A stretch of 64,000 nt of DNA from Synechococcus sp. WH 5701. GTDB taxonomy: Bacteria > Cyanobacteriota > Cyanobacteriia > PCC-6307 > Cyanobiaceae. Shown here piece by piece: positions 43,621 through 45,756 of the stretch (within the stretch, counting starts at the first letter, position 1; the number at the start of each line of letters is the position of its first letter). The translations under genes were made by a program, and so were the position numbers. The stretch covers positions 475,259-539,258 of the forward strand of contig NZ_CH724159.1 in assembly GCF_000153045.1 (NCBI RefSeq), written 5' to 3'. The notes under the pieces are model-generated. The model made no database searches, had not been told where the DNA came from, and saw nothing but the letters and a program-made list of their open reading frames with translations.

Positions 43621-43631
43621 ATTTGAGCTCC

Positions 43632-44024
43632 ATGACCATTGCCCCCCTTCCCGGGCTCATCACCCTGCTGGCCGTGATCACCTTTCAGGCCACTGCCATG
43701 CAGGTGGGCCGTGCGCGGCTGCGCGATGGGGTGAAGCCGCCGCTGATGACCGGACCGCCGGCCTTTGAGCGGGCCGTGCGGGTGCAGCAGAACACCCTGG
43801 AGCAGCTGGTGGTGTTCCTGCCGGCTTTCTGGTTGGCGGTCCTGGTCTCCAACGCCACTGCGGCCTCGGTGCTGGGGGCGATCTGGGTGCTGGGTCGTGT
43901 GCTCTATGCCGTGGGCTATCTGCGGGCTCCGGAGCAGCGGGGGGCGGGATTCGCCATCAGCTTCCTCGCTTCGACAGTGCTGCTGGTGATGGCCCTGGTG
44001 GGCTGCGTGATGCGCCTGCTCTGA
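43632..44024 (+). CDS. MAPEG-family membrane protein
   Basis: About 130 aa with four hydrophobic segments. The family pattern is visible in 'ATAMQVGRARLRDGVKPPLM', 'FERAVRVQQNTLEQLVVFLP' (E-R-x-x-R-x-x-x-N-x-x-E) and 'LGRVLYAVGYLRAPEQRGAG' (R-x-x-Y). MAPEG proteins include glutathione transferases and peroxidases of membranes. The TTG at 43623 would add three residues. Confidence 0.85.
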   Translation: MTIAPLPGLITLLAVITFQATAMQVGRARLRDGVKPPLMTGPPAFERAVRVQQNTLEQLVVFLPAFWLAVLVSNATAASVLGAIWVLGRVLYAVGYLRAPEQRGAGFAISFLASTVLLVMALVGCVMRLL

Positions 44025-44058
44025 GCCCCTGGCCTACGCTCCGCTGCCAGGTTGCTGA

Positions 44059-45756
44059 ATCCTCCTGGCCCGTCCAACGTCTTCCCTGAGCACCCGCCTG
44101 CGGGGCCGCGATCTTCTCGCCGATCCCTGCCTGAACAAGGGGACGGCCTTCAGCCGCCAGGAACGCCGGGCGTTCGGGCTCGAAGGCCTGCTGCCCCACG
44201 CCGTGGAGAGCCTGGAGACCCAGGTGGAGAGGCACTGGCAGGCCTTCCTCAGCCTGAGGAACGACCTGGAGAGGTTCCGCTTCGCGGTGGCCCTGCGCCA
44301 GGCGAATCTCACCCTCTTCCATCGCTTCCTGGCGGATCACATCGAGGCGGTGATGCCGATCGTGTACACCCCCACCGTGGGGGCGGCGATCCAGCGCTTC
44401 AGCCTCGATTACCGCACGCCCTCCGGCGGTGTGTTTCTGGCGGCGCCCGATCTAGAGCGGATCGAGTCGGTCTTGAGCCAGGCGGCGACCGGGCCGGTGG
44501 ATCTGATTCTGATCACTGATTCGCAGGGAATTCTCGGCATCGGCGATCAGGGCATCGGCGGCATCGAGATCTGCCTGGGCAAGCTGGCGGTGTACACGCT
44601 CTGCGCCGGGCTGGATCCCGCCCGGGTGCTGCCCCTGGTGCTGGATGTGGGCACCGATCGTGTCGAGCTGCTGGAGAACCCCCTGTATCCCGGCTGGCGC
44701 CACCCGCGCCTGGATGGTCTCGACTACGACCGCTTCCTGGCCCGCAGCGTGGAGGCCCTGCAGCGCCAGTTCCCTGGTGCGCTGCTGCACTGGGAAGACT
44801 TCGGCACCGGCCATGCCCACCAGCTGCTGGAGCGGTACCGACTGCAATTGCCCAGCTTCAACGACGACATCCAGGGCACCCGCGGGGTGGCCTGCGCGGT
44901 GGTGAAAGCGGCCTCCCACGGCGCCGGCCTGCCTCTGGAGGACCACCGCATCGTGGTGTTCGGGGCTGGCACGGCCGGTTGTGGCATCGCCGAGGGGCTG
45001 GTGCGCCTGCTCACCAGGGCAGGATTGAGTGAGCCGGAGGCGCGCCGCCGCATCTGGGCGATCGACCGGGAGGGTCTGGTGCTGGCTGATCAGCCCGGCC
45101 TTTCCCCCATGGCCCTGGCGCTGGCCAGGGATCCCTCCGAGCGTTCGCTGTTCGAGCACGACACGCAGGGCCGGATCGGCCTGCTGGAGGTGGTGCGCGC
45201 GATTCAACCCACCGTGCTGATCGGCACCTCCACCGTGACCGGGGCCTTCAGCCGCGAGGTGGTGGACACGATGGCGGCGGCTGTGGAGCGGCCAATCATC
45301 CTGCCCCTCTCCAATCCCACACGCCTGGCGGAAGCGACCCCCGCTGATCTCTACGCCTGGACAGGAGGACGGGCCCTCGTGGCCAGTGGCAGCCCGTTCG
45401 AGCCGGTGAGCTGGCAGGGCAGCCTGCGCCGGATCGGGCAGTGCAACAACTGTTTCCTTTTCCCCGGCCTGGGCTTCGCCAGCGTGGCGGTGGGCGCCAC
45501 CCAGGTGAGTGAGGGAATGATCGATGCCGGGCTCGACGCCCTGGCCGACCGCATTCCGGCCTTCCGGGATCCGGAAGCCCCCTTGATGCCCGAACTCACC
45601 CAGGTGCAGGCGGTGTCGCGGGCCGTGGCGGAAGCCGTGGCACTGGCGGCGGTGCACGAAGGCCTCGCCAGCCGAGCCGCCAGCGCCGAGGAGGCGATCG
45701 AGCGGCTCGATCAGGCCACCTGGACGGCGGCCTACCGGGAGCTGGAGGCGATCTGA
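44059..45756 (+). CDS. NAD-type malic enzyme, start codon non-standard
   Basis: Malic enzyme converts malate to pyruvate, CO2 and NAD(P)H. Motifs include 'VMPIVYTPTVGAAIQRFSLD', 'LILITDSQGILGIGDQGIGG', 'LLHWEDFGTGHAHQLLERY', 'PSFNDDIQGTRGVACAVVKA', 'IVVFGAGTAGCGIAEGLV' (nucleotide site) and 'ILPLSNPTRLAEATPADLY'. The first ordinary start is GTG 44203, but the same frame upstream encodes the conserved 'GRDLLADPCLNKGTAFSRQE' region from about 44100 and stays open from 44059. No ATG, GTG or TTG lies between 44059 and 44202, so a rare start (ATC, CTG or ACG) or a sequence error is implied. The enzyme body is intact. Confidence 0.85.
   Translation: MLLARPTSSLSTRLRGRDLLADPCLNKGTAFSRQERRAFGLEGLLPHAVESLETQVERHWQAFLSLRNDLERFRFAVALRQANLTLFHRFLADHIEAVMPIVYTPTVGAAIQRFSLDYRTPSGGVFLAAPDLERIESVLSQAATGPVDLILITDSQGILGIGDQGIGGIEICLGKLAVYTLCAGLDPARVLPLVLDVGTDRVELLENPLYPGWRHPRLDGLDYDRFLARSVEALQRQFPGALLHWEDFGTGHAHQLLERYRLQLPSFNDDIQGTRGVACAVVKAASHGAGLPLEDHRIVVFGAGTAGCGIAEGLVRLLTRAGLSEPEARRRIWAIDREGLVLADQPGLSPMALALARDPSERSLFEHDTQGRIGLLEVVRAIQPTVLIGTSTVTGAFSREVVDTMAAAVERPIILPLSNPTRLAEATPADLYAWTGGRALVASGSPFEPVSWQGSLRRIGQCNNCFLFPGLGFASVAVGATQVSEGMIDAGLDALADRIPAFRDPEAPLMPELTQVQAVSRAVAEAVALAAVHEGLASRAASAEEAIERLDQATWTAAYRELEAI

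Follow-up and report, generated by a model that had tools for sequence, protein, structure and literature searches.

A malic enzyme gene without a canonical start codon in Synechococcus sp. WH 5701 and nearly all of its congeners, with probable translation from a rare codon, for instance ATC

We analyzed a window of 64,000 nucleotides of DNA from Synechococcus sp. WH 5701, in which an open reading frame for an oxaloacetate-decarboxylating malate dehydrogenase (malic enzyme) occupies positions 44059..45756 on the forward strand, the strand of every feature described below. Counted from an ATC at 44059, the frame comprises 565 codons, with a stop codon that ends at 45756, and it is directly preceded by an in-frame TGA (44056..44058). 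Pfam, NCBIfam and solved-structure matches agree on the identity of the protein. Over its whole length it passes the curated cut-off of the large-subunit malic enzyme profile NF010052 (698.6 bits against a cut-off of 326, E = 5.9e-210, match from residue 8), the Pfam domains PF00390 (195.1 bits) and PF03949 (281.1 bits) both score above their cut-offs, and the best solved-structure match, 6ags_A (E = 3.2e-149), aligns from residue 12 (44092). The first ATG, GTG or TTG in this frame is a GTG at 44203..44205, 48 codons in and past the conserved N-terminus, as the malic enzyme family sequence LLADPCLNKGTAFSRQE is encoded upstream of it. An earlier note on this DNA had described a frame open only from 44059, with no ATG, GTG or TTG before 44203, a conserved N-terminus ahead of that codon, and CTG 44065, ACG 44077 and CTG 44086 in frame. 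We found these coordinates to be correct, and the profile and structure alignments, beginning at residues 8 and 12, bear out the conserved N-terminus. Further upstream lies a MAPEG-family gene (43623..44024) whose stop codon is 34 nt 5' of ATC 44059.

The genus sample consisted of nine genomes, including that of the window, and all nine were found to carry the malic enzyme gene with a MAPEG-family gene 5' of it. Aligning the start in close relatives, a check that the earlier note had proposed, revealed that the frame opens with TGA and ATC in all eight other genomes and that seven of these, like the window, have no ATG, GTG or TTG before 44095 and so none 5' of the conserved N-terminus. The sole exception is Synechococcus sp. 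BSA11S (L039, the same as L011), which has GTG at the codon matching 44086. A late first start codon is not rare by itself because open frames run into neighbouring sequence; a mechanical list of the 38 coding-like frames of the window holds five others whose first canonical start is more than 50 codons in. We consider the missing start of the malic enzyme to be real because homology, the conservation in all eight congeners and purifying selection in the frame upstream of 44203 all point the same way.

This selection was measured across the nine species. In the malic enzyme frame, pN/pS was 0.28 for 44095-44148 and 0.46 for 44149-44202, while the two shifted frames over 44095-44202 gave values of 0.85 to 3.29; for 44302-44700 the malic enzyme frame gave 0.17. 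These values support translation from at least ~44095 and therefore a start within 44059-44098. Over the first 12 codons (44059-44094), pN/pS was 0.82 versus 0.71 and 0.83 in the shifted frames, which does not discriminate between them. The absence of a canonical start for the malic enzyme is conserved in the genus, and we are highly confident that no such start serves the full-length protein in Synechococcus sp. WH 5701; weak translation from a rare codon, ATC for example, is probable. A literature search brought up no publication on the start codon of the Synechococcus malic enzyme among the partial texts that it covered, which does not prove that none exists.

The sequence immediately around the ATC is strongly conserved. 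Across the nine species, 33 of the 37 columns in 44033-44069 are invariant, as are 22 of 23 in 44047-44069 and all 16 in 44047-44062. By comparison, 89 of the 206 fourfold sites of the malic enzyme gene are invariant (43%), and at this rate the binomial probability of 22 invariant columns in 23 is ~1e-7, a figure that assumes independent sites and ignores shared descent and linkage. Among the next 25 columns (44070-44094), 11 are invariant. Longer invariant runs, of 26 and of 20 columns, occur inside the coding part, and length alone does not set the 16 columns of the leader apart; what is distinctive about them is that third positions and non-coding bases are included. This frozen part contains a -10-like element, TACGCT (44035..44040), a possible Shine-Dalgarno sequence, AGG (44049..44051, or AGGT), a 7-nt spacer ending in the TGA, the ATC at 44059 and a CTG at 44065. 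TACGCT, the AGG and the TGA, the last of which lies inside the run 44047-44062, are each invariant in all nine species, and the AGG is, we presume, complementary to the 3' end of the 16S rRNA.

Other searches of the leader yielded little. A sigma-70 scan, which requires a -35 element, found no promoter and did not pick up TACGCT, so that a promoter is suggested here by likeness only, and a terminator scan found no terminator. A possible hairpin (GCCAGG/CCTGGC, 44046..44069), whose 12-nt loop would hold ATC 44059, was predicted in all nine species when folded from 44046. Its outer pair is lost in two of the nine, no compensatory change was seen, and its shuffle z-score was -2.09 for 44046-44078 and +0.48 for 44047-44090; we therefore treat the predicted hairpin as a weak feature that is not robust. 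An RNA-family search of 43900-44300 up to E = 1 returned one match, to a snoRNA family; at 12.4 bits it is far below the gathering score, and we take it to be due to chance. As a repeated regulatory motif, the leader found no second copy in its own genome, where a 22-base pattern with up to three mismatches and a 15-base core each occurred once. The looser pattern TACGCT-N6-CCAGG occurred twice, and the second place (L123) resembles coding sequence by eye.

We propose that this is a working gene whose full-length malic enzyme begins at a near-cognate codon, AUC 44059 being the likeliest, and that this holds its synthesis low, a reading to which we give an even chance. Transcription would start a few bases 3' of TACGCT, giving a very short leader, and the AGG would place the ribosome on the AUC (44059..44061) 7 nt downstream. 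The initiator tRNA would pair imperfectly with this codon and, because of that weak pairing, initiation would be inefficient and open to rejection by IF3, keeping malic enzyme synthesis low. The site of transcription initiation, the use of AUC, the low yield and any regulation of the enzyme are all inferred. An excerpt of PMC12350097 places AUC among the seven codons from which E. coli initiates most strongly, each at more than 100-fold over control, and part of PMC9845219 describes the incidence of AUC starts as varying across prokaryotes.

Two near-cognate codons are conserved well enough to be compared, namely ATC 44059 in all nine species and ACG 44077 in eight. We favour the AUC over the ACG on two counts drawn from conservation, which fall short of proof: of the two codons only the AUC lies in frozen surroundings, and BSA11S, the most diverged congener, has kept the ATC while changing ACG 44077 and its neighbours. 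On these grounds we rate AUC 44059 as the codon actually used at roughly even probability. Several observations count against it. BSA11S could use its GTG at 44086, the AGG is short for a Shine-Dalgarno sequence, the leader would be only ~12 nt long, and 44059-44094 gives no clear coding sign, so that 44059-44076 is only putatively translated. Moreover, a promoter, an operator or a structure at the end of the mRNA would explain the frozen leader equally well, with the start lying further on.

The wider set of relatives was searched with a query whose residue 1 corresponds to window position 44095. Four hundred genomes were drawn from the larger family, and loci are given for the best matches among them; the enzyme is patchy in the family, with matches in 84 of the 400. 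Merging 22 duplicates and leaving out L082, L091, L098 and L100, whose matches start beyond query residue 60 or fail the E-value, removed 26 loci in all, and 75 distinct genes remained. None of the weak class-level matches (L015-L032) passed the filter. The tree took in 74 of the 75 proteins, L099 being too short, and its start labels are mechanical, an ATG within 45 codons being taken first, failing that a GTG, and a TTG last; L040, L079 and L107 are labelled GTG, and a TTG at -13 or -8 looks likelier for them. In ten of the 75 genes, eight from this genus and two from another, the open frame offers no canonical start up to residue 1. The second lineage consists of L110 and L050 (the same as L111, Cyanobium sp. 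Morenito 9A2), both of the genomes concerned, and in each the 78 bases ahead of residue 1 contain no ATG, GTG or TTG in any frame. Well supported branches force two separate changes on the tree to account for the ten start-less genes. L110 and L050 share the candidate codons CTG, ACG, and ATC three bases after CCCCAGG. In three other genes (L061, L072 and L099) a canonical start lies only more than 25 codons 5' of the conserved part, making them possible further cases, and in L112, L116 and L119 the open frame of the malic enzyme extends upstream through ~290-312 further codons that include many start codons, so that the enzyme may be fused to another protein.

On this tree, our genus stands beside a group of two genera, with support of 94/89, which is below the starred level. 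In the first sister genus the counterpart of codon 44077 is ATG in all four genomes; in the second, all three genomes have TTG at two codons further upstream. Other genes occupy the position of the MAPEG gene in these sister genera, yet one of them has retained TACGCT, 58-63 nt from residue 1 in all four members compared to 60 nt here.

The serious rival to AUC 44059 is ACG 44077 (44077..44079), because the sister genus has ATG at exactly that codon (L041/L103, L042/L109, L080/L104 and L096/L108). Under this explanation the sister genus has kept an ancestral ATG that in our genus changed to ACG (to ATC in BSA11S) and still serves there as a weak near-cognate start; both codons, found in eight and one of the nine species, respectively, are one change from ATG. 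The spacing agrees as well, with TACGCT 36 nt from ACG 44077 here and 34-39 nt from the ATG of the sister genus. On the other hand, no purine-rich Shine-Dalgarno sequence precedes the ACG, the sequence just 5' of it (44070-44076) is variable, in contrast to the constant surroundings of ATC 44059, and the codon itself has changed in BSA11S. ACG is a weaker start codon than AUC in E. coli, which we also counted against it. Nor does ACG figure among the seven strongest start codons listed in the excerpt of PMC12350097. We regard a start at ACG 44077 as possible, though doubtful. An ATG that was lost as the start, and drifted to ACG after the start had shifted upstream to AUC, fits the data, and plain use of the ACG fits the data too.

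The rare-codon start suggested by the earlier note is therefore supported in kind, and its list of candidate codons has been narrowed. CTG 44086 (44086..44088) drops out as a shared start since it is CTG in five of the nine species, CAG in three and GTG in one. CTG 44065 (44065..44067) is invariant in all nine and lies 13 nt from the AGG; it is a weaker candidate, and we think it improbable that this or another codon is the start.

Readings in which the ribosome reaches the frame by other means (a frameshift, an internal start or some other route) are, even taken jointly, unlikely. Production of the malic enzyme only from an internal GTG (44203 or 44224), without the conserved first 48-55 residues, would agree with a Pfam malic domain that begins only at residue 82 of the frame and with the presence of GTG 44224 in all nine species. 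However, 44095-44202 is under purifying selection in the malic enzyme frame, solved malic enzymes align from residue 12, and GTG 44203, present in six of the nine species, is GTC or GTT in the other three, so that we hold this reading to be very unlikely. Slightly less credible still is a start at the out-of-frame TTG 44052 (44052..44054) followed by a +1 frameshift into the malic enzyme frame. This TTG is invariant in the nine species, and in eight of them 44027-44094 contains no other canonical start triplet, whatever the frame, but it abuts the AGG without a spacer. The frame that it would open is 23 to 155 codons long (23 in four species and 27 in another), and inspection by eye revealed neither a slippery site nor a stimulator. 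Fusion to, or a frameshift from, the MAPEG gene is also unlikely, as L038 (the same as L009) is one base short between the MAPEG stop codon and the ATC and the frame relation is consequently not kept. Finally, the other proposal of the earlier note was a sequence change near the start. Loss of an ATG or GTG through a private mutation, or through an error of sequencing or assembly, could be imagined for an assembly of 116 contigs with an estimated contamination of 5.11%, but it is refuted by the same TGA and ATC opening in all eight other congeners, including one assembled as a single contig of 3.2 Mb (G004), and its probability is negligible.

If AUC 44059 is the start, a more speculative extension, which we consider rather unlikely, is that the codon serves control: a hairpin at the 5' end of the mRNA would hold the AUC in its loop and the Shine-Dalgarno sequence in its stem, translation would be tied to the balance of initiation factors or the state of the cell, and the second lineage (L110 and L050) would have come to the same state separately. 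Were this true, the two lineages would mean repeated selection for replacing the normal start of the malic enzyme. More generally, few genes need a near-cognate start that is conserved over a genus, and the malic enzyme would add to them an enzyme of central carbon metabolism from a photosynthetic bacterium. Gene finders restricted to ATG, GTG and TTG would trim at least 48 residues from the protein in these species. The two start-less lineages, together with a sister genus that has ATG, also offer a ready comparison for the effect of a near-cognate start on expression in cyanobacteria.

Unusual as a near-cognate start for the malic enzyme would be, a few other bacterial genes already provide examples of this kind. 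In Staphylococcus aureus, infC (AUA), cvfC1 (AUU) and ccpN (AUA) are described in part of PMC13009471 as having conserved near-cognate starts with reduced yield, and the output of ccpN as varying with the growth medium. A strong or extended Shine-Dalgarno sequence is reported there for the S. aureus cases and is absent before ATC 44059, which has only AGG(T); we have not treated this feature as defining. One close parallel in kind is infC, which encodes IF3 and has a conserved AUN start with weak initiation (AUA in S. aureus, PMC13009471; AUU in E. coli, as cited in the excerpts of that paper and of PMC9845219). The infC start serves autoregulation by IF3; the malic enzyme, by contrast, does not belong to the translation factors, and a feedback loop is not known here. 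For pcnB of E. coli, a weak AUU start limits expression (a reference cited in the excerpt of PMC13009471), but gene, codon and phylum differ, and the effect is experimental for pcnB and inferred for the malic enzyme. The ccpN gene shares a conserved near-cognate start and a tie to central carbon metabolism (PMC13009471, in part), although it has an extended Shine-Dalgarno sequence where the malic enzyme has only AGG(T) and encodes a regulator rather than an enzyme. Closer in descent are the sister picocyanobacteria (L041, L042, L080 and L096), which have the same enzyme at 69-73% identity and TACGCT at a similar distance, but ATG at the 44077 codon and different upstream genes. If the inference holds, the malic enzyme of this genus would work like infC, pcnB or ccpN, as a gene with a conserved near-cognate start of a known kind.
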